The notes under the pieces: generated by a model
The model's input: the letters and a program-made list of their open reading frames with translations, nothing else
Databases searched by the model: none
What the model was told of the DNA's origin: nothing
IMG/VR virus record: IMGVR_UViG_3300005549_000034
Span: 1-21,589 of that record
DNA: 21,589 bases
Origin: a virus
Reading direction: 5' to 3' (one strand)
Shown here: positions 8,716-20,399 of the stretch, piece by piece
Layout: the number at the start of each line of letters is the position of its first letter
Numbering within the stretch: position 1 is the first letter of the stretch
Program-made: the position numbers and the translations under genes

Positions 8716-10703
8716 GTTTGCGCCACCCCTTGCGAAGCGGGCGCGGTGCGGGTGGTGCCGACCAACACCGGGACGTCGGTGCCGACCGTCTCGGTCCCGG
8801 CGATGGTGGCAGTGTCGGTGTTCCCGCCGATGCCGAGGGAGGCGTAGACGCCGTCGTGCTGCGCCGCGAAGTCGTCGAAGTACACATAGTTCGAGCCGCC
8901 GTTGGGAAGGCTGTCGACCTCCACTTTGACCGCCGCGTAGGCGGCGGTGGCGGGCGCCGGTGCGGTGACGGTGAGCGCCACAAACCCGGAGTTGGGCAGG
9001 GACACGTCCGAACCGGTGGTGGTGGAGATCGTCGCCCCGGCCGCCGTGTACCAGACGATCTTGAGGCGGCCGGTCTTGGTGCTGATCGCGGCGTTGACTC
9101 GCCCGTAGGCGGTGACGGTGACGGCGGCGCCGACGATCACCGTGAATCCGGATGTGCCGGTCGGGGTTGTCGCGGAGACGGTGGCGGTGCCGGCGGTGCA
9201 CTCGAGCCGTAGTGACTTGGTGCCGGTGCGGGCGTAGGTCGCGGATTGTGAGATGGTCGTGGTGGCTCCGGCCGCCCATCCGGTGGTGTCGGTTTCGAGT
9301 CCTTGCTGGTTGGTGGTCAGCTTCTCTGTCGCCGTCTCACCGGTGGTCAGTGTCGTGACGAGCCACCCCACTCCGGACGCGGCGGTGGACGTGAACTCCA
9401 CGTAGTGCTGCGCCGCACTGCCGGCCGCCCCGGACGCGCCCGGTAGTGACAGGGATTGCGGCAGCCGAGGCGAAGAGCGCACGTCGAACGGGGTGACCGT
9501 GACCGTGCCGCCGACCTGGGAGTCGTCGGAACGCTTCTTCAACTTCGCCAACAGACTGACGGTGGTTGCGGTCGACTGTTGGCGGGCAACGAACTTCAAC
9601 CAGCCTCGCGACGCCGTGTCGGGCAGGGTGACTTCCTGCTGCAACACCCGACCGGTGTAGACCGTCTGCTCGGTGATCGTCACATACGGCTGGCCGGTCA
9701 ACGCGGTGGCGGTCGTGTCGAGAACGATGAAGCCAGGCGCCGCGGTGTCGGTTGTCCCCAACGCTGAGGGAACGGCGCGGGTGTCGAACGTGACCGGGCA
9801 CGAGCTGATGTCGGGATGGGCGGAGCCGGAGTCCAACGCCCGCCACGAGCTCGACCCGGTGCCCTGCGGGTTCGACAGGATCACCAGATACGAAGTGGCG
9901 GCGGCGAGAGACCAGGTGTCGGCCGCCGCGGGGGACAGCATCGACACCGTGTTCCACCCGTCGACCGCGGAGAACTTGCCGGCCGCTACCCGTGAGTCGG
10001 TGGTGGTGTAGTCGACCGTCATCCACTCCTGGTAGACGCGCACCAGGTTCGTGGTCGACGACGAGTTCGCCAGACCGGCATACGACCCGGAGTCGAACCC
10101 GGTGATGTCGGCCGCCGTCCACGGCGCCCCGGTTGACGGGTTGTACGTCCAGGTGTAGGTGATCGTCTCCCGGCCGGTCGGCACCGAGATCGACGGGGCG
10201 TCGTAGACGACGCTGGACAGCGACAGGCGGGGGATCAGCGCGGCGGTGCCGCCCGCCAACGCTTCCACGTCGGCGTGCAGCGTGACCGAGAACGGGCGGC
10301 CGGTGAACCCGGTTGACGCGTACTCGAACAGGCCGTACCCGTTGACGGACTGCATGATGTTGTAGTCGGTGATGTCGACTACGGCCTCGTCGACATCGGT
10401 GTACAGCGGCGGGGTCGACGACGCGCCGGCGTCGGTTACACCGGTCACCGAACCGTCGGCGTTGGGCCGGTAGGTGGCGGTCACCGTCGCGCCAGGCACC
10501 ACCGAGGCTTCGGGGACGATCTCCACCGCGATCACCGGGGAACCGGAGGTGGACGCCATGTAGAGCATCAGGTCGTCGCCGGTCTGCGCACCGGGCGTCC
10601 ACCGGGCCGCCCATTGACGGTCCTGTCCGATGGCGAGGCCGCGTTGGCGGTACGGGAACCATTCCAGTCCGACGACGGTCGGGCTGTTGGCGTTGAGGCT
10701 CAT
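8712..10703 (-). CDS. Large minor tail protein with carbohydrate-binding-like domain
   Basis: A 663-residue beta-rich virion protein and the likely adhesion subunit. The N-terminus (TVVGLEWFPYRQRGLAIGQD) is followed by several Thr/Ser/Gly-rich beta domains. Residues about 500-650 (GTKSLRLECTAG, SLPNGGSNYVYFDDFAAQHD) match a galactose-binding jelly-roll layout like CBM_4_9. It contains few Lys and many Thr/Ala/Val, typical of secreted or virion beta proteins. The ATG at 10703 overlaps the tape-measure stop as ATGA. Host receptor binding is inferred from the jelly-roll and genome position. No chaperone or peptidase domain is seen. Confidence 0.8.
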   Translation of the reverse strand: MSLNANSPTVVGLEWFPYRQRGLAIGQDRQWAARWTPGAQTGDDLMLYMASTSGSPVIAVEIVPEASVVPGATVTATYRPNADGSVTGVTDAGASSTPPLYTDVDEAVVDITDYNIMQSVNGYGLFEYASTGFTGRPFSVTLHADVEALAGGTAALIPRLSLSSVVYDAPSISVPTGRETITYTWTYNPSTGAPWTAADITGFDSGSYAGLANSSSTTNLVRVYQEWMTVDYTTTDSRVAAGKFSAVDGWNTVSMLSPAAADTWSLAAATSYLVILSNPQGTGSSSWRALDSGSAHPDISSCPVTFDTRAVPSALGTTDTAAPGFIVLDTTATALTGQPYVTITEQTVYTGRVLQQEVTLPDTASRGWLKFVARQQSTATTVSLLAKLKKRSDDSQVGGTVTVTPFDVRSSPRLPQSLSLPGASGAAGSAAQHYVEFTSTAASGVGWLVTTLTTGETATEKLTTNQQGLETDTTGWAAGATTTISQSATYARTGTKSLRLECTAGTATVSATTPTGTSGFTVIVGAAVTVTAYGRVNAAISTKTGRLKIVWYTAAGATISTTTGSDVSLPNSGFVALTVTAPAPATAAYAAVKVEVDSLPNGGSNYVYFDDFAAQHDGVYASLGIGGNTDTATIAGTETVGTDVPVLVGTTRTAPASQGVAQT

Positions 10704-12601
10704 ACCGACATCGCCAGCGCGTCGGTCACGGCCCGTTTCATGCCGGCTTCGTCACCGATGAACGTCCCCTGGAAGATGAACGTGTTGCCGCCGAGTTTGT
10801 GGTTCGACACGATCGACCCGGACGCGCCGGGCACGAACAGTTCCGGCCCGCGTTCCCCGACGAGATAGGGCATCGCCGCCGACACTGCACCGCCCATCGC
10901 CTTGTGGGAGCCGGGTAGTTGCGGCACGAATCCCGGCCCGATCAGACCACCACCGCCACCGAGCAGCCCGCCGATCGCATCCTTGGCGTCGAGCAGGAGC
11001 TGGATCGGAATCATTGCCTTCTCGGCGATCTCTTTGATCGTGCCGAGGATGCTGACGATCGGATCGAACACGTTCTGCTTCACCAGATTCCATCCGGCGG
11101 TGACCACATCCCACGCCGTTTGGAACGCGCCCTTGATGGTTCCGAGCACGGTCTCGATCGTGTCCTTGGCGAAGGTGACGGCCCACACGATCTTGTCGAA
11201 GATCGGGGCGCCGACCGTGTCCCACACCGTGCTCGCGGCGTTCCACACCGTCTCGAAGGTGATACGGATCACGTCGAACGCAGTAGCAACGATCGTTGCG
11301 ACCGTCTGGATGTACAGCATGAGACCCTGGTAGAAGGGCACAACCACGTTGTTCCAATAGATCCCGATGGCGTCGAACACCAACTGGAAGGCAGCGCGGA
11401 TCTGATCCCAGTGGTCGACGATGAACATGATGACTTCGGCGTAGGCCGCGATGATCGCCTTGAGCACCGGGGCGTAGACGTTGTCCCACAATGACTTGAT
11501 GGCGTCGAACACCGCCTGGACCGTCGTGCTGATCTCTTCCCAATGGTCCTGCACGAACGTGATGACTTCCTGCGCGGCGGCCACAATCGACTCGAAGACG
11601 GTCTGCATGGTCGGCCATGCCACCTCCATCAACCAGGAGGCGACGTTGTCGACGACTTCGCGGAACCCCTCGAAGTGGGTGTAGGCGTAGTAGACGCCTA
11701 GAGCGAGCGCGGCGACGGCGAGGATCACCAGACCGATCGGGGAGATCAGGAACCCGATGGCGGTCACCAACGATCCGACCACCCCGATGACAGGGCCGAT
11801 GGCGGCGGCGATCAACGCGAAAATCAGGACCGCCTGCTGCATCCCCGGTGACAGGTCGGTGAACCAGTCGGCCAGCTTGCCGAGCCAGTCCGCCAGTTTC
11901 GTGATGAGCGGAAGCAGCGCGGAGCCGATCTTCTCGGCAACGTCGGCCATTTTCAACTTCATGATCTCCATACGACCGGCGGCCGTGTCCGCCGCCGTCG
12001 CCGCCGCGCCACCCATCGTCTTCGACGCGTTCTGCAAAATCTGGTCGTAGGAGAGGGCTTCGCCGGCCGCGTCCTTCGTCTGGATGCCGAGCTTCGACAA
12101 CGCGCCGGTGGAACCTTGCGCCGCCTTCGCCATCGCGTTCACGACAGTCTCGAGCGGAATGTGCCGCGCCGCGGCGATGTCAGCCGCTACCGCCAGGTCC
12201 TTGTGGGACTGCTCCACCGATCGACCGGCGACGAGCAGTTTGCCCATCGCCACCCGCAGGTCGTCGTCCGCGACCCCCGTCGCGTTCTGCATCGACGTGA
12301 TCCACTCTTCGTTGGCGTCGACCTGATCCTGGGTGGCGCCGGTCGTGTTCTTGAGAAGAGTGGCGAGCACCGCCATCTTCTCCTCTTCCTCCGCAGCGGC
12401 GTTCGTCATCAGCCCGAGCGCACCGACGATCGGCAAGGTCACACTCTTGGTGAGCGTCCCCCCCAGGCTCTGCAGTTTCGAGCCCAACCCACGGGCCTTG
12501 GATTCGACACCGTCGATACCGGAACCGACCTCGGCGAACGCCCGCTTGACGTTCGCGACATCCCCTAAGACCTTGATCGTGACAGTTCCTTGACCAGCCA
12601 A
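10700..12601 (-). CDS. Tail tape-measure protein, 633 aa
   Basis: Sets tail length and enters the host envelope during DNA delivery. It has an Ala-rich helical N-terminus (EEEEKMAVLATLLKNTTGAT), strongly hydrophobic segments at about 256-304 (FALIAAAIGPVIGVVGSLVT) and then helical repeats. Two 44-residue repeats share a V.DHW..I....Q.VFDAI...W.NV pattern at the FVQDHW and FIVDHW segments. The C-terminus carries LVGERGPELFVPGASGS, a common tape-measure ending. At roughly 0.15 nm per residue it predicts a tail near 95 nm. TTG 12601 is the first start after an in-frame stop and has GAGGTGA just upstream. It follows the chaperone genes as expected. Confidence 0.93.
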   Translation of the reverse strand: MAGQGTVTIKVLGDVANVKRAFAEVGSGIDGVESKARGLGSKLQSLGGTLTKSVTLPIVGALGLMTNAAAEEEEKMAVLATLLKNTTGATQDQVDANEEWITSMQNATGVADDDLRVAMGKLLVAGRSVEQSHKDLAVAADIAAARHIPLETVVNAMAKAAQGSTGALSKLGIQTKDAAGEALSYDQILQNASKTMGGAAATAADTAAGRMEIMKLKMADVAEKIGSALLPLITKLADWLGKLADWFTDLSPGMQQAVLIFALIAAAIGPVIGVVGSLVTAIGFLISPIGLVILAVAALALGVYYAYTHFEGFREVVDNVASWLMEVAWPTMQTVFESIVAAAQEVITFVQDHWEEISTTVQAVFDAIKSLWDNVYAPVLKAIIAAYAEVIMFIVDHWDQIRAAFQLVFDAIGIYWNNVVVPFYQGLMLYIQTVATIVATAFDVIRITFETVWNAASTVWDTVGAPIFDKIVWAVTFAKDTIETVLGTIKGAFQTAWDVVTAGWNLVKQNVFDPIVSILGTIKEIAEKAMIPIQLLLDAKDAIGGLLGGGGGLIGPGFVPQLPGSHKAMGGAVSAAMPYLVGERGPELFVPGASGSIVSNHKLGGNTFIFQGTFIGDEAGMKRAVTDALAMSV

Positions 12602-12609
12602 CTGTCACC

Positions 12610-13028
12610 TCACTGAGACGATGCTGCTTCCAGAATGTCGTGCATGGTGGTCAGCAGCGCGGCGAAGTCCCGCAGGTTCAGGTCACGCAGCGACTCCAGG
12701 GTGTAACCGGGGTAGAAGTGGCAGAGGGCAGCTAACGTTTCCGTTGCGCTGCCGTCGTAGGGTCCATCTTCACCCGCAGATCGCCAGCCATCTCCATCGT
12801 GAAGTCCGGGTTGTCGCGCTTCTTGATGATGTAGCCGATGATGCGCAGGAACGGTCCGAGCGGGGCGCCGCCCTGTAACGCTTCTGCGAACTCGACGAAC
12901 GTCTTGCCGGTGTGTTCTTCGATCTCTTCGATCTCGCGCACCCGGAGGTCGTCGAGGTCGAAGACGAGCTCATCTGCGGCGGGTTTGGTGACGCGTCCGT
13001 TGCGGACCGCGGCGCGGTTGGGGGCCAT
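12610..13028 (-). CDS. Tail assembly chaperone, -1 frameshift form (gpGT-like)
   Basis: The -1 frame stays open through the end of the short form and on to TGA at 12610-12612. It encodes a 42-residue helical extension (TLAALCHFYPGYTLESLRDL, then NLRDFAALLTTMHDILEAAS) with no usable start of its own. The joined product is about 139 aa if the shift occurs at the AAA codon just before CGT TAG. Such -1 extensions of the G-type chaperone are conserved in long-tailed phages. The candidate slip site (CAA CGG AAA CGT) is not a canonical X XXY YYZ heptamer. The exact slip point may lie further upstream, because the -1 frame is open for many codons. Confidence 0.8.
12732..13028 (-). CDS. Tail assembly chaperone, short form (gpG-like), 98 aa
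   Basis: The zero-frame product that binds tape-measure and tail-tube subunits during tail assembly. It is helical and acidic in the middle (FDLDDLRVREIEEIEEHTGK), then KTFVEFAEALQGGAPLGPFL and a basic end (TTAAQRKR). The ATG at 13028 has AAGGAG four nt upstream. Its position between the tail-tube block and the tape measure and its size match the lambda gpG role in actinophages. A fraction of ribosomes should shift -1 near the stop to make the longer form. The assignment relies on context and the overlapping frame more than on strict motifs. Confidence 0.85.
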   Translation of the reverse strand: MAPNRAAVRNGRVTKPAADELVFDLDDLRVREIEEIEEHTGKTFVEFAEALQGGAPLGPFLRIIGYIIKKRDNPDFTMEMAGDLRVKMDPTTAAQRKR

Positions 13029-13036
13029 GCATCTCC

Positions 13037-13432
13037 TTAGAAGAACTGGTTGATGAGGTCGTTGCAGGCGTCGGCGTACGCCTTCTCCAGTTCGCCGGAC
13101 TCCAACGCTTCGCTCTTCGCGTTCCACAGGAACGGCCGAGCCGGTATCACTCCGCCACGCTTACGACCCCAGTGGATTGCCGCCGCGTACGGAACACGCG
13201 ACGGGGTGCCGGCGCGGACGTTGCCCTTCTTCGGCGTCGACATCGCCTTGACCGACGCCTTCAACTTCCCCGACCGGACCGGCACGTTCGGTAACGCACG
13301 ACGGACAACAACTTCCGCCGCCTTCTTGTTGGCATCGGCCAGCGCCTTGCGCTCGAACCCGTCGTTGACCTGACCGATGATGCGCTTGAGCTGGTCGGCG
13401 CCGATCACTTGGACGTACAGGTCAGCGGCCAT
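13037..13432 (-). CDS. HK97 gp10-like head-tail/tail component, 131 aa
   Basis: Shows the pattern of the HK97-gp10_like family. It has an N-terminal helix (GADQLKRIIGQVNDGFERKA), the conserved VPVRSGKLKASVKA segment at residues about 50-63, then PYAAAIHWG, a PARPFL motif and a C-terminal helix. Family members act as neck or tail-completion proteins. The ATG at 13432 has GAGGG six nt upstream. Its place after two tail-tube genes is unusual, as it usually precedes the tail terminator. A 144-bp gap, unique in this module, separates it from the upstream gene. Confidence 0.85.
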   Translation of the reverse strand: MAADLYVQVIGADQLKRIIGQVNDGFERKALADANKKAAEVVVRRALPNVPVRSGKLKASVKAMSTPKKGNVRAGTPSRVPYAAAIHWGRKRGGVIPARPFLWNAKSEALESGELEKAYADACNDLINQFF

Positions 13433-13450: not shown

Positions 13451-13573
13451 GTGAAGCGGGTGTGGCGGACGGTTCTGGTGGGACTTCTGGTGACGGTGGG
13501 CGCCTGCTCCGAAGGCAGGGCATCGGACTCGCCGTACGTGAAGACTCACGTCTCTGACGCGTCCAGCCCGTAG
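13451..13573 (+). CDS. Candidate small lipoprotein on opposite strand, 40 aa
   Basis: A plus-strand GTG ORF fills the gap between two minus-strand tail genes almost exactly. It begins with a basic MKRVWR, a hydrophobic run (TVLVGLLVTV) and a lipobox V-G-A-C with Cys19. A short polar mature part (SEGRASDSPYVKTHVSDASS) ends in SSP. This is the full layout of a bacterial lipoprotein signal. GTG 13460 could also start it. No good Shine-Dalgarno is present. A weak TACCCT -10 at 13437-13442 would allow a leaderless transcript. Its strand, opposite to the late operon, suits a gene expressed from a prophage. A superinfection-exclusion role would be inference by analogy with other phage lipoproteins. 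Confidence 0.45.
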   Translation: MKRVWRTVLVGLLVTVGACSEGRASDSPYVKTHVSDASSP

Positions 13574-13576
13574 AAC

Positions 13577-14002
13577 TCACCAGGTCGCGTTCGTGACCGC
13601 CCCAGTCACTTGCAGGCTGGCGGTCCATTCGGCTCGGCCGCCGACACTGCCGGACGGCGTGTACCCGGCGACGAGGCATTCGCCGCTGATCTTCGCCTGC
13701 CCCGACACCGAACCGCCCGGTCCCCACAGGAACGAGAACGACGCCGTCCCGGCGTCCTGGGCGGCGAGACACGAGCCGAGATGGCCGTGCAACGCCACGT
13801 CGTAGGGGCCTTTGATGCTGATCGTGTCACCTCCCGCGAGACCGGCGATGTACGCCTTGGCCGCGGTGCCGAACACCGACACGTCCAACATGGCCCGCGA
13901 CTGCGGGACACCCGAGTCGTCGATGTACGAGGACAAGTTGGTGGGCGTCCCACCTGCATTGTCCAGTGACAGAAACCCTAGGTACCCGGGCTTGAACGAC
14001 AC
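13577..14002 (-). CDS. Major tail (tube) protein, 141 aa
   Basis: Subunit of the tail tube. The order GFLSLDNAGGTPTNLSSYID, a MLDVSVFGTAAKAYIAGL segment and GDTISIKGPYD matches the tail-tube core common in actinophages (DLS.Y, DV..FG, Y..GL, .S..G). The remainder is beta-rich (AEWTASLQVTGAV). GTG 14002 is chosen because AAGGAG lies 9 nt upstream and the codon directly precedes MSFKPG. It is short for a tube protein but complete. A second, longer protein with the same core lies immediately upstream, which is unusual. Confidence 0.8.
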   Translation of the reverse strand: MSFKPGYLGFLSLDNAGGTPTNLSSYIDDSGVPQSRAMLDVSVFGTAAKAYIAGLAGGDTISIKGPYDVALHGHLGSCLAAQDAGTASFSFLWGPGGSVSGQAKISGECLVAGYTPSGSVGGRAEWTASLQVTGAVTNATW

Positions 14003-14018
14003 GATGATTGCTCCTTGT

Positions 14019-14747
14019 TCAGCGCCGGGCGAGCCCGACTTGGAAGGTGGTGGTTCCGGGGGTGCCGGTCAGGTCCCATGAGCAGCGGACGTACCGGCGG
14101 ACGGTCCCGGCGATGACGAGGCGTTCCTGGGTGAGAGCGGTAGCGGTGGCGAACGTGCCGATCGTCGCCCACGTCGAGTTGTTGGCGGAGTCCTCGATGA
14201 TGACGGCGTTGGATGTGAACCCGGAGAACGCGGTGACGTGCAGATGGGCGACGGCCCCGTTGGCCGACGACGCGCCGCCGTCGTAACCGGTCGACGATCC
14301 GTCCAACGTCTCCGCGGTCAGGTCATGCAGGGAGACGCCACGGTCGCAGAGTCCGGTGTTCTGCACGTCGAGCGAGAACGACACGGGGGTGGTGGTGGTG
14401 GCGCCGGTCTCGGATTTGGCGGTCAGCCCGGAGGTGAGCAGCAGCTCCGCGCCCGCCGTGAGTCCGGAGGGTCCGAAGGTGACGGCTTCGGCGCCGGTCC
14501 AGTCGTTGATCTGGTCGTATTGCAGGTCGCTGGTGCCGTCCGGGTCGAGGAACCCTTTCATCGTCAGGGTCGACGAGGTTTGGCCGGGGATGAACACACG
14601 GGACGGGGTCGTCCCGTTGCCGGGGGAGGTGGGGACGGTCACGTCGAGCATGTCGACGGTGAACGGTTCGGACCAGTCGGTGATGTAGGCGGAGAACGAG
14701 AAGTCGCCGCACACCACCCGAGACTTGAAACCGGGGATGAACGTCAT
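14019..14747 (-). CDS. Second tail-tube-like protein, 242 aa
   Basis: The first 75 residues repeat the tail-tube pattern: a SAYITDWSEPFTVDMLDVTV stretch, then SRVFIPGQTSSTLTMKGFLD, parallel to the DVSVFGTAAKAYIAGL and SIKG core of the next gene. The C-terminal part is a Thr/Ala/Gly-rich beta domain (NAVIIEDSANNSTWATIGTF) with discoidin-like features. The ATG at 14747 overlaps the terminator-gene stop as ATGA. It may be the main tube subunit with a surface domain, or a minor tube or tip-adaptor subunit. Which of the two paralogues forms most of the tube cannot be decided here. Confidence 0.75.
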   Translation of the reverse strand: MTFIPGFKSRVVCGDFSFSAYITDWSEPFTVDMLDVTVPTSPGNGTTPSRVFIPGQTSSTLTMKGFLDPDGTSDLQYDQINDWTGAEAVTFGPSGLTAGAELLLTSGLTAKSETGATTTTPVSFSLDVQNTGLCDRGVSLHDLTAETLDGSSTGYDGGASSANGAVAHLHVTAFSGFTSNAVIIEDSANNSTWATIGTFATATALTQERLVIAGTVRRYVRCSWDLTGTPGTTTFQVGLARR

Positions 14748-16096: not shown

Positions 16097-16633
16097 TCAG
16101 GAAACGTGGATGATCCCCAACCCCCAACAGTCGGGATGTTCGGTCCAGGTGAACCCTTCGAGCGCACAGAACACTTCGAGCGCAGCTTTCACCGGGAACC
16201 GGGGCCGCAACGGGGCGCCGATGGGATGCTCGAGTTGGGTGTCGTGCAGCACGATCCGCCCGCCCGGTTGGCACAGCCACCGGTAGACGTGCAGTTCGGA
16301 CAGGGTGTGGTCGTAGTGGTGGGATGTGTCGATGAACACGATCTCCGCCGGCTCCAGCGCCGAGACGATGAGGGGGTCGAGGTCGTCGCCTTGCAGGAAC
16401 GTCCAGCGGGGATGTTCGAGCGCGGGGGGCGGGTCGATGTCGATGGATGTGAGCCGGCCGCCGGTACGGTCCAACGCGTCGAGGAAAGCGACGGTGGAGA
16501 CGCCGGTGCGGGTGCCGAGCTCGATCACATGCTGGGCGTTCAGTCCGATGGTGAGGGCGTGGAGCCGGGGCAGGTGGGCGACGATGTCCGACGGGGTTTG
16601 GCACAACCGTTCGTAATCGGCGGTGAGGGTCAA
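16097..16633 (-). CDS. Class I methyltransferase (Methyltransf_24-like), 178 aa
   Basis: A SAM-dependent methyltransferase. It has motif I HVIELGTRTGVSTVAFLDAL, the acidic ribose-binding SIDIDPP, and IVFIDTSHHYDHTLSELHVY followed by PGGRIVLHDT. This is the arrangement of sugar or small-molecule O-methyltransferases in the Methyltransf_24 group. The TTG at 16633 overlaps the preceding stop as TTGA, with GGAG five nt upstream. It is the third of three tandem methyltransferase genes after two glycosyltransferases, so methylation of a glycan or its precursor is the likely job. The substrate cannot be read from sequence. Confidence 0.85.
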   Translation of the reverse strand: MTLTADYERLCQTPSDIVAHLPRLHALTIGLNAQHVIELGTRTGVSTVAFLDALDRTGGRLTSIDIDPPPALEHPRWTFLQGDDLDPLIVSALEPAEIVFIDTSHHYDHTLSELHVYRWLCQPGGRIVLHDTQLEHPIGAPLRPRFPVKAALEVFCALEGFTWTEHPDCWGLGIIHVS

Positions 16634-17196
16634 GGTTTCTCCGCCGCCGCGCAGAACCGGCCCATCCCGTCCTTGGTCACGTCGTCCATGTCGACGAGAC
16701 GCATTCCGTACCGGCCGCACACCTGCCGGGCCGCGTTGTGATGCGATTCGTGGTGGGCGTCGTCGAAGATCACCACCCCGCCGGGGATGCACCGCTCCAC
16801 GGCGTCGTGCATGGTCGCCTCCCGCATGACCCCGTTGGCGAGGTCATGGAAGATCAGGTCGTGAACCGTGTGGGTGTGCCGGTAGTCCTCCCACAACATC
16901 AGCCCGTCGGTCGGCATCTGCTGGGCGGCCAGGAACTCACAGGTCGCTTGCAGCCAGTCGGGGTCGGTGTCGACCGAGGTGACGGTGGCCCCGGACTGTT
17001 GCGCGTAGAGCCGCAGGACGTAGGAGGACCAGCCCGACCCGTAGTCGGCGACGGTGACCGGTTGGCGGGCCCGGCACAACCACAACAAGAACGTCCCGGT
17101 CTGCAATGACATCGCCATGCCCGGCTCGGACACGTCGGTGCAGTAGTCGCGGTAGGAGTCGAGGAGTTCGGCGCGGATGTCGTCGGCGTTCAGCAT
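16630..17196 (-). CDS. Class I methyltransferase, 188 aa
   Basis: Rossmann-fold methyltransferase with motif I VADYGSGWSSYVLRLYAQ, the acidic VTSVDTDPDWL, LIFHDLANG and a late CIPGGVVIFDDAHHESH motif. The His-rich DDAHH segment parallels the IDTSHHYDH and IDGLHTYEE motifs of its two neighbours, so all three are probably distant paralogues. The ATG at 17196 overlaps the previous gene by 7 bp. N-terminal residues 1-35 are helical and acidic. Within the glycan cassette it probably methylates a sugar hydroxyl. Protein methylation cannot be excluded. Confidence 0.8.
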   Translation of the reverse strand: MLNADDIRAELLDSYRDYCTDVSEPGMAMSLQTGTFLLWLCRARQPVTVADYGSGWSSYVLRLYAQQSGATVTSVDTDPDWLQATCEFLAAQQMPTDGLMLWEDYRHTHTVHDLIFHDLANGVMREATMHDAVERCIPGGVVIFDDAHHESHHNAARQVCGRYGMRLVDMDDVTKDGMGRFCAAAEKP

Positions 17197-17708
17197 TTCG
17201 CCCACCACAGGGTGGCGATCACGTTGGCGTCGGGGAACTGTTCGATGACCGCCTCTTGGATCGGTCGGTGGTGGACGTCGTCGCCGCACATGATCCCGTC
17301 CGGCACCACCAACGGGAGGATGGTGTCGATCTGGTCGCGTACTTCTTCGTAGGTGTGGAGCCCGTCGATGAAGCAGAACTTGACCGGCTCACGCTGTTCC
17401 GTGAAGTAGTCACGCCAATCCTGGCGGTGCGGGACGATGTTCAGTCCTTCGGTGTTGGCACAGAAGGTGGAGTACACGTCTCGTTCGGCGGCGAAGAGTT
17501 CGGTGATCTCGCCTGTCGAGCCGCGCCACGTATCGACGGCGTGAACCACTTGCGGGTGTGCGGCGGCGGCCAACGCCAGCGTCGACCGTCCTTCCCACGA
17601 GCCCACTTCGACGATGTCACCGGTCAGGTCACGGGTCCGTCGGCACAGGTCCGCCAACGCTTCCTGCGACCATTCCGAAAACCAATCCTCAGTGAACTGC
17701 GGGGACAC
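17190..17708 (-). CDS. Class I methyltransferase (Methyltransf_24-like), 172 aa
   Basis: Has motif I GDIVEVGSWEGRSTLALAAA, the acidic VHAVDTW, and VKFCFIDGLHTYEEVRDQID followed by VVPDGIMCGDD. These are standard Methyltransf_24 features, with the HTYE motif that often binds a divalent metal near the substrate. The GTG at 17708 overlaps the end of the GT17-like gene by 20 bp. It is the first of three methyltransferases in a row and is the closest of the three to known sugar O-methyltransferases. Expression must depend on coupled translation because no separate ribosome site is clear. Confidence 0.85.
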   Translation of the reverse strand: MSPQFTEDWFSEWSQEALADLCRRTRDLTGDIVEVGSWEGRSTLALAAAAHPQVVHAVDTWRGSTGEITELFAAERDVYSTFCANTEGLNIVPHRQDWRDYFTEQREPVKFCFIDGLHTYEEVRDQIDTILPLVVPDGIMCGDDVHHRPIQEAVIEQFPDANVIATLWWAKC

Positions 17709-18483
17709 GGGACCGGAACCACGACTCGGGACATTTGCGTTCGTAGATCCACCGCGGCCAGGTCCGGTCCACTTCGACCGGGGTCATCTGCTGCCCGTCG
17801 ACATGCCACCCGTCGCCGCGGAAGGCGTCAATCTCCAATCCCATCAGCACCCGTTCGGTCACCTCGGGATGGCAGAACGTCTTCAACTTCTCGCGGGCCG
17901 TCTCCTCCGAGGTTCGGTCACCGACCGGCATCCACGACAGATGCCAGCCACCGTTGGGGATCTTGCGGACGATGTTGCGCATGTCGCGCATCGCCCCGAA
18001 CGATTGGATGTCCTTCACGCGCCCGGCGACCGTCCCGTACCACGGGAGCGGATAGAGCCAGTCAACGCTGAAGAAATGACCTCGTTGCTCCAGGCTGACG
18101 AACCCTTGCGGGCGCAGGTTGCGCACCACCAGCGGGTTAGGGATCTCGTCCACATCGCCGTGCAACACGAGGTCGTCGGGTCGGGCGTTCAGTTCCTCCA
18201 GCCCGAAGCGCACGTATTCGCGTTGCGCGTGTTCTCTCGCCCACGGGTCCGGGTCGAACGTGCGCGGCGGGAGCCCCTTGGCTTTGACGATGTGCAACCG
18301 GTCCGCCCACTGCTCGAACCGGTCCAGGTTCTCGGTGACGTGAAACGGCTTGGGATGGTCCTGGTGGTCGACGTTTGCTTCCACGATGACGTGCACGAGG
18401 TTCGGGATGTCTTGAAGCTCGTACAGGCGACACTCGAGCATCTCGAGTTCGTCGTTCACCATGAAGGAATCGAAGATGGTCAC
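17689..18483 (-). CDS. GT17-like glycosyltransferase, 264 aa
   Basis: A glycosyltransferase of the GT17 type (Glyco_transf_17, the family that includes eukaryotic GnT-III). The N-terminus FDSFMVNDELEMLECRLYEL, the VHVIVEANVDHQDHPKPF stretch and the metal-binding DVDEIP (residues 110-115) are diagnostic. GWHLSWM and a C-terminal Trp-rich part follow. The GTG at 18483 overlaps the previous stop (GTGA). Bacterial and phage GT17 members are usually of unknown substrate. Here it probably adds a sugar to a glycan begun by the larger enzyme upstream. Confidence 0.88.
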   Translation of the reverse strand: MTIFDSFMVNDELEMLECRLYELQDIPNLVHVIVEANVDHQDHPKPFHVTENLDRFEQWADRLHIVKAKGLPPRTFDPDPWAREHAQREYVRFGLEELNARPDDLVLHGDVDEIPNPLVVRNLRPQGFVSLEQRGHFFSVDWLYPLPWYGTVAGRVKDIQSFGAMRDMRNIVRKIPNGGWHLSWMPVGDRTSEETAREKLKTFCHPEVTERVLMGLEIDAFRGDGWHVDGQQMTPVEVDRTWPRWIYERKCPESWFRSRVPAVH

Positions 18484-20399
18484 CGCTTGCCGAGCCCGGT
18501 CCGTTGCATGGCGATCAGCGGCATCCGCGACAGAAACGTCTTGCGGTCCTCCTCCGCCGTCTCCTGCGCTTTCACGTACACCGGGTCCGCGGCGCGTAGG
18601 TCTTCGCGTCCGTCGTAGCCGGGATGGTGGTGTTCGATCACCGACTCCAGACAGGGGGTGAACACGCCGCGAGCCTTCGCAAGCTCGATGATCTCCTTGT
18701 CCACGTACCAGTGGCCGTAGGTCTCCGGTGCGAGGACGCCGGGGCCGTCGAGGCACGCCCCGTACTTCTCCACGTAGGAGCGGCGAACGAAGAAATGGTC
18801 CGCGTGGCGGCCCGCGGCCACGTCGGGGTTCTTCACACCGTTGGAACTGTCGTTGGTTCCGATGACGTCGAATTCGGTGGAGAGCTTGCGGGCCGCTTCG
18901 ATCCATCCGGGCATGAACTCGACGTCGTCACCGACCAGGAGAAGCCAGTCCTCTGACGTTCGGCCGAACTCAAAATTGACCTTGTGCGCGTAGGTCGACG
19001 TATCGAGACCGGTGTTGACGTTGACGGCCTCGGTTGAACACCAAAGCGGGTCATCGCCGACGAGAAACAGATGGGCGCTGCCATCATTCGTCGCGTCGAA
19101 CGACGACACGAGGCGTTCAATGTTCGCCTGTCGCATCGCGGGGACGATGACGGCGACCGATTCCATCTCCGGTCGTTCGAGCTCCAACACTTCGGCCGGT
19201 CTGGCGAGCGTGTCGAGGAACGGCCGCCAGTAGGTGTCGTACACCCGGTCGGTGTCGTACTGCTGCGCGAACTCGATCGCTTTCACCGTCATCGCGTCAC
19301 GGTCGGCGTCGTGCGCTTCGTTCAACGCTCGGATCACGTCGAGCGTGTACGGGCACAGGTAGGAGGCGTGTTGCGCGGGGTCCCATTCGAGTTGGCCTGA
19401 CACCAGCCAGCCCGCAGCACCGAACGCTGGGCCCGCCAACTCGGTTTGCGACGAGAACTCGGAGGCGATGACCGGGGTCCCGCACGCCTGCGCTTCGATG
19501 AGGGGGACACAGAACCCTTCTCCGTGCGACGGGGCCAACAGCACGTCCATGGCGGTGTAGGCGGCGGCCATCATCTCCGGGGTGAAGCCGACCCGGTAGG
19601 CGTACTGGTCGACCCACCGGATCGCGTGCTCGGGGACGGCGGCGTGGATGGCGAGTTCCTTGAGTTGGAAGCCTTCGGCGCCGCCGGGCCAGTCGCAGTG
19701 CATGTACAGGATGGCGTTCTGGTGGGTCAGCCAGAACTGGCCGAACGCCCGCAACGCCTCGTTGAACCCTTTGCGGTCGCGGGCCCAGCCTTTGTTCATG
19801 GCGACCATCCCGACCAGGAACGCGTCGTCGGGGATCGGGTCGCCCAACGCCAGCATCTGGCGGCCGGTGACTTCCTGCCCGGCGATCACACAGGTCGGGG
19901 TCGGCTTGTACACCGTCGTGTCGACCGACAACGGGATGTAGACGGGGTCGAGGCCGGCTTCGGTCAACTGCCGTTCCCCGTAACGGGACATGGCGACCGG
20001 GACGGCGTCGGGGTTGCGGTGGAAGAACTCGAGCACGTCGCGGGGGACGGGGAAGTGGTCGACGGGGCACCAGACGGCGACGTTGAAGTCCTTCAACCGG
20101 GGGTTGGGGAGCAGACACCAGATGTCCAGCAGGGTGACGATCCAGCCGGAGGTTTCGTCGCCGTCGAACCAGTGCGACGCGTGGTTGTGCACGATGTCGA
20201 CGCCGTTCACTTCGTATCCGGTGGGGTAACAGCGGATCTGGCGTGACCCCCACGGCATCACTTCGCCTTGGATGCCGTAGGTGCAGGAGACCGCGACGTC
20301 GTGTCCGTCGTCGTGCAACCGTTCGGCGAGATGGCGGGTCTGCACCCCGTAGCCGGTCTTCACCCACGGGGCGTTGCTATGAATCAAGAAACGGCTCAC
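18480..20399 (-). CDS. Two-domain glycosyltransferase (GT4 + GT2-like), 639 aa
   Basis: The first 400 residues form a GT-B enzyme of the GT4 (Glycos_transf_1) type. The N-terminal SNAPWVKTGYGVQTRHLAER is the nucleotide-sugar glycine loop. SHGEGFCVPLIEAQACGTPV (291-310) carries the E-x7-E pair Glu294/Glu302. Residues about 414-639 form a second GT-A, GT2-like domain (VAVIVPAMRQANIERLVSSF; FLVGDD at 445-450; LLVGDDVEFMPGW at 487-499). Two transfer activities in one chain suggest consecutive additions to a glycan. GTG 20399 overlaps the previous stop (GTGA). The first gene of the cassette's enzyme series. The acceptor, perhaps the capsid, is inferred only from position. Confidence 0.9.
   Translation of the reverse strand: MSRFLIHSNAPWVKTGYGVQTRHLAERLHDDGHDVAVSCTYGIQGEVMPWGSRQIRCYPTGYEVNGVDIVHNHASHWFDGDETSGWIVTLLDIWCLLPNPRLKDFNVAVWCPVDHFPVPRDVLEFFHRNPDAVPVAMSRYGERQLTEAGLDPVYIPLSVDTTVYKPTPTCVIAGQEVTGRQMLALGDPIPDDAFLVGMVAMNKGWARDRKGFNEALRAFGQFWLTHQNAILYMHCDWPGGAEGFQLKELAIHAAVPEHAIRWVDQYAYRVGFTPEMMAAAYTAMDVLLAPSHGEGFCVPLIEAQACGTPVIASEFSSQTELAGPAFGAAGWLVSGQLEWDPAQHASYLCPYTLDVIRALNEAHDADRDAMTVKAIEFAQQYDTDRVYDTYWRPFLDTLARPAEVLELERPEMESVAVIVPAMRQANIERLVSSFDATNDGSAHLFLVGDDPLWCSTEAVNVNTGLDTSTYAHKVNFEFGRTSEDWLLLVGDDVEFMPGWIEAARKLSTEFDVIGTNDSSNGVKNPDVAAGRHADHFFVRRSYVEKYGACLDGPGVLAPETYGHWYVDKEIIELAKARGVFTPCLESVIEHHHPGYDGREDLRAADPVYVKAQETAEEDRKTFLSRMPLIAMQRTGLGKR

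Follow-up and report, generated by a model that had tools for sequence, protein, structure and literature searches.

The DNA analysed here, referred to as the window, is the whole 21,589-bp stretch of IMG/VR record IMGVR_UViG_3300005549_000034, an incomplete virus fragment with 65% GC. The late genes of the window all lie on the minus strand. They encode the capsid, two glycosyltransferases, a methyltransferase, a head-tail adaptor and two major-tail-type proteins, as well as an HK97-gp10-like protein, a tail chaperone, a tape measure and an amidase. The features in and around the tail block are as follows.

10700-12601, minus strand: tape measure protein
12602-12992, minus strand: tail assembly chaperone, apparently extended in a second frame up to the tape-measure gene (start codon placed near 12992 on the basis of the reading frame)
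13037-13432, minus strand: HK97-gp10-like tail completion protein (gp10; PF04883, phrog_5), with relatives in phiC31 (gp40), Gordonia phages and loci L118-L130
13433-13576, no strand: 144-bp intergenic stretch, seam of two tail half-modules, without a homologue among the fetched loci
13451-13573, plus strand: candidate 40-aa lipoprotein ORF with GTG start and TAG stop, defined by its coordinates, pattern match and rarity
13577-14002, minus strand: major tail protein (MTP; phrog_10528), with relatives in loci L022 (60%) and L023-L042 (46-53%)
14019-14747, minus strand: second major-tail-type protein (MTP2; phrog_9522)

The open second frame of the chaperone stops just short of the tape-measure gene, suggesting programmed frameshifting. 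Between the capsid and the head-tail adaptor, positions 16097-20399 hold GT1 and Glyco_transf_17 glycosyltransferase genes and a CmcI/rhamnosyl-methyltransferase-like gene. This gene order is kept in L002, L003 and many of L024-L042, and the region appears to be a conserved glycosylation cassette within the structural operon. Beyond the lysis region and opposite the late genes, an IS1595-family transposase with zinc ribbon and DDE domains is encoded at 1548-2588 on the plus strand.

The gap between MTP and gp10

Between the end of the MTP gene (13577) and the start of gp10 (13432) lie 144 bp, of which the candidate ORF takes up 123. The preliminary description called this the only gap in the tail operon, which is fair for sizeable gaps, since the second-frame extension of the chaperone occupies what looks like another gap in the tail block (12602-12731). 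The genes on the two sides have different relatives. Those of the upstream half (MTP, MTP2, adaptor, methyltransferase and glycosyltransferases) are found together in L022-L042, whereas gp10, the chaperone and the tape measure are found together in L118-L130 and in phiC31-like phages. Where gp10 directly follows a major tail gene, the spacing, read off the locus list by inspection, is close to 0 and does not exceed 45 bp, compared to 144 bp here, so that the 144 bp look like an addition. A gene other than gp10 follows MTP at a distance of ~13 bp in L022 and others, and in L039 and L041 MTP is separated from gp10 by a chaperone with its extension. The 144-bp sequence matched nothing among the fetched related loci. 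Because the relatives of the flanks differ, the spacing elsewhere is short and the sequence matches nothing, the gap is the junction of two half-modules of a mosaic tail operon, with extra DNA. A phage moron is a gene added between two that adjoin each other in relatives; added DNA is seen here (144 against at most 45 bp), and the gene within it is a candidate.

The gap might also be a minus-strand relic of the late operon, or a leader for gp10 translation, with the plus-strand ORF as its shadow. A minus-strand frame in the gap, lacking any of the usual start codons, ends in TGATG, its TGA overlapping the gp10 ATG, and it outscores the ORF on codon log-odds (0.12 vs -0.03). Some relatives have a stretch of 115-151 bp before gp10, which in L039 is the chaperone second-frame extension. 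In the window, however, the chaperone and its extension sit downstream of gp10, and the minus-strand frame has an internal TGA, no ATG, GTG or TTG, and nothing similar to it in the related loci. Nor does the gap fold more strongly than its shuffles (z 0.23 and -0.15) or match Rfam, results on which an RNA element was also rejected. A relic or leader is thus an unlikely origin of the 144 bp. Separately, a minus-strand frameshift extension or a readthrough of MTP was ruled out by codon scores of -0.72 and -0.22.

The candidate ORF and the rarity of its signal

The ORF at 13451-13573 translates as VKRVWRTVLVGLLVTVGACSEGRASDSPYVKTHVSDASSP. It has a basic N-region (K2, R3 and R6), then a hydrophobic core and V-G-A-C at residues 16-19, and it satisfies the strict Gram-positive lipobox (G+LPP) pattern. 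The antisense 40-codon ORF with a complete lipoprotein signal that had been proposed was therefore borne out with its exact coordinates, and its basic n-region, hydrophobic core and lipobox Cys are those of a bacterial lipoprotein of the Lgt/Lsp substrate type. The predicted signal comprises residues 1-18, leaving a lipidated Cys19 and the 22-residue mature peptide CSEGRASDSPYVKTHVSDASSP, which has a single Cys and no recognisable domain.

Rarity was assessed by a scan combining a strict lipobox pattern with a hydrophobicity threshold. The ORF was the sole match among the 248 window ORFs of at least 30 aa, a figure that, like those that follow, serves as a guide, as the pattern was picked after the ORF had been seen. 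A lipobox ORF appeared in 2 of 100 dinucleotide-shuffled windows and in 2 of 20,000 shuffles of the 200-bp local region. In these comparisons the signal is rarer than expected by chance.

The same 144 bp could nevertheless be untranslated seam DNA, with the lipobox frame an accident of 65% GC that was chosen as striking. This reading is a strong contender, at somewhat under even odds. The ORF was selected by a reader out of the whole window, and any ORF of at least 30 aa arises in 74% of the region shuffles, a setting in which only the full signal is scarce (2% for shuffled windows, 0.01% for the shuffled region). When ~1.24 Mb of related loci, partly redundant, and annotated actinophage genomes were scanned, the matches included two annotated genes (Ottawa gp11 and RemusLoopin gp44), likely lipoprotein genes in L006, L007 and L092/L093, and three probable chance matches (Ottawa 17322-17558, L154 and L193). 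Lipobox matches in this related sequence are likely to be mostly real lipoprotein genes. Probable chance lipobox ORFs do occur at ~3 per 1.24 Mb, which favours an accident, but all three apparently lie antisense within genes and not in gaps, whereas the window ORF fits its gap closely.

Relatives, homologues and coding evidence

No close relatives were recovered by IMG/VR scans using the MTP, gp10 and tape measure proteins singly, or by genome-contig scans using both major tail proteins; profile scans reached relatives at up to 60% identity. In all available relatives, the corresponding gap differs and the lipobox ORF is absent. The preliminary description had taken such a pattern in close relatives to speak against the gene, and it holds for the relatives at hand, the nearest of which shares just 60% identity in the neighbouring tail protein, making this a weak refutation. 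A homologue of the ORF was found in neither phages, plasmids and family libraries nor an IMG/VR scan for the back-translated signal-peptide pattern, as would be expected of a chance frame. The search of Pfam, PHROGs, NCBIfam and phage records gave no significant match, the superinfection-exclusion lipoproteins (Llp, Cor and Ltp) included. A weak PHROGs match to phrog_5492 (E 0.034) has a score that signal peptides alone reach. A spanin identity was rejected, with only a weak PHROGs match (E 0.21) and related phages that infect Gram-positive hosts. The sequence of the ORF, its signal pattern and rarity, its seam position and orientation, and its absence from the available relatives are direct observations.

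Sequence signals give no support to expression, in keeping with a chance frame. The ORF has no Shine-Dalgarno site (-4.8 kcal/mol, where random start codons have a median of -5.9), and neither a sigma-70 promoter nor a T-run terminator, such as a moron would have of its own, was found, the consensus used not covering leaderless or actinobacterial promoters. Its codon log-odds of -0.03 is average for antisense frames and ranks at the 10th percentile among true frames, and its GC by codon position (0.61/0.54/0.83) resembles that of the window genes. Codon usage falls between coding and antisense and is ambiguous. The idea that the gene is on in the lysogen found no support in these signals, and the window, an incomplete fragment, holds no tyrosine or serine integrase or recombinase. 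Some relatives carry one, including a tyrosine integrase on the L023 record.

Precedents and a possible role

The reading that we favour, with a probability of roughly 0.45, is that the ORF is a very small moron-like accessory lipoprotein gene, acquired against the late genes at the recombination seam between the MTP half and the gp10/chaperone/tape-measure half of the mosaic tail operon. We favour it because the lipobox is rare, the ORF closely fits the gap, the 144 bp look added, the flanks differ and precedents exist; even so, the odds that it is a genuine moron-like gene and the odds that it is a chance ORF are about the same. What we infer concerns its status as a gene, processing, location, timing and function. 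If translated, the protein would be exported by the Sec pathway; Lgt would lipidate Cys19, Lsp would remove residues 1-18, and the 22-residue lipopeptide would end up on the outside of the cytoplasmic membrane, in a host that is probably actinobacterial. Most likely it would serve to alter the surface of cells that are infected or lysogenised, with superinfection exclusion as one option.

Superinfection block had been proposed from phage lipoproteins of this size, and here the size was wrong: T5 Llp has 61 mature residues and Ltp is also larger than the ORF product, which at 22 residues falls short of the mature domain of about 60 residues or more taken as typical of the Llp, Cor and Ltp group. 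T5 Llp contains a disulphide and jams the outer-membrane TonB transporter FhuA (PMC9586334). Like Llp and phi80-T1 Cor, the predicted product would be a small lipoprotein encoded by a phage and lipidated at an N-terminal Cys, but the mature peptide is about one third the length of Llp and has a single Cys. While the target of Llp is FhuA, the related phages of this window infect actinobacteria, which are not known to have FhuA-type transporters. Streptococcus phage TP-J34 Ltp, considered a moron, has a serine-rich spacer and two repeat regions and is a lipoprotein anchored outside the cytoplasmic membrane of its Gram-positive host (PMC3952083). The predicted product would be tethered in the same way; in contrast, the gene for Ltp belongs to the lysogeny module, whereas the ORF is part of the tail operon and encodes no such spacer or repeats.

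The best precedents for the ORF are phiC31 gp32 and an ORF of L007 that is likewise antisense and has a lipoprotein signal. L007 is distantly related, judged by its capsid, and its record carries a serine recombinase.

L007 18535-18780, minus strand: antisense lipobox ORF of 81 aa (CNRTSKASNPAITRINAETDCAQLQTEFDRAEQ...), in a gap flanked by a glycosyltransferase gene and a tail gene

Antisense genes in late operons thus exist. In phiC31, which shares the gp10/chaperone/tape-measure order, gp32 runs opposite to the late operon and carries the annotation 'transcribed in lysogens'. It differs from the ORF in its length of 531 bp, its lack of a lipoprotein signal and its position between terminase genes. 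The L007 frame, for which no phage homologue was found, is likewise an antisense lipobox frame in a gap beside a tail gene. It is longer, with a mature part more than twice the length, and lies upstream of the tail gene, and the similarity is limited to the signal. Lambda Bor (97 aa) is a lipoprotein moron expressed by the prophage, antisense to the late genes; it lies downstream of the lysis genes and belongs to a Gram-negative host.

It is conceivable, though improbable, that this group of phages harbours a class of very short antisense lipopeptide genes, unrelated to one another, at tail-side seams, missed by gene callers, that alter the lysogen surface. The window ORF and the L007 ORF, both beside tail genes and antisense to the late operon, would be its examples. 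If the window ORF is not expressed, it shows that GC-rich phage DNA can produce a perfect-looking lipobox by chance, a few times per megabase. An expressed ORF would rank with the shortest phage lipoproteins and be an accessory surface gene at a tail-operon recombination seam, a place rarely examined by gene callers, and its 22-residue lipopeptide could alter the cell surface.
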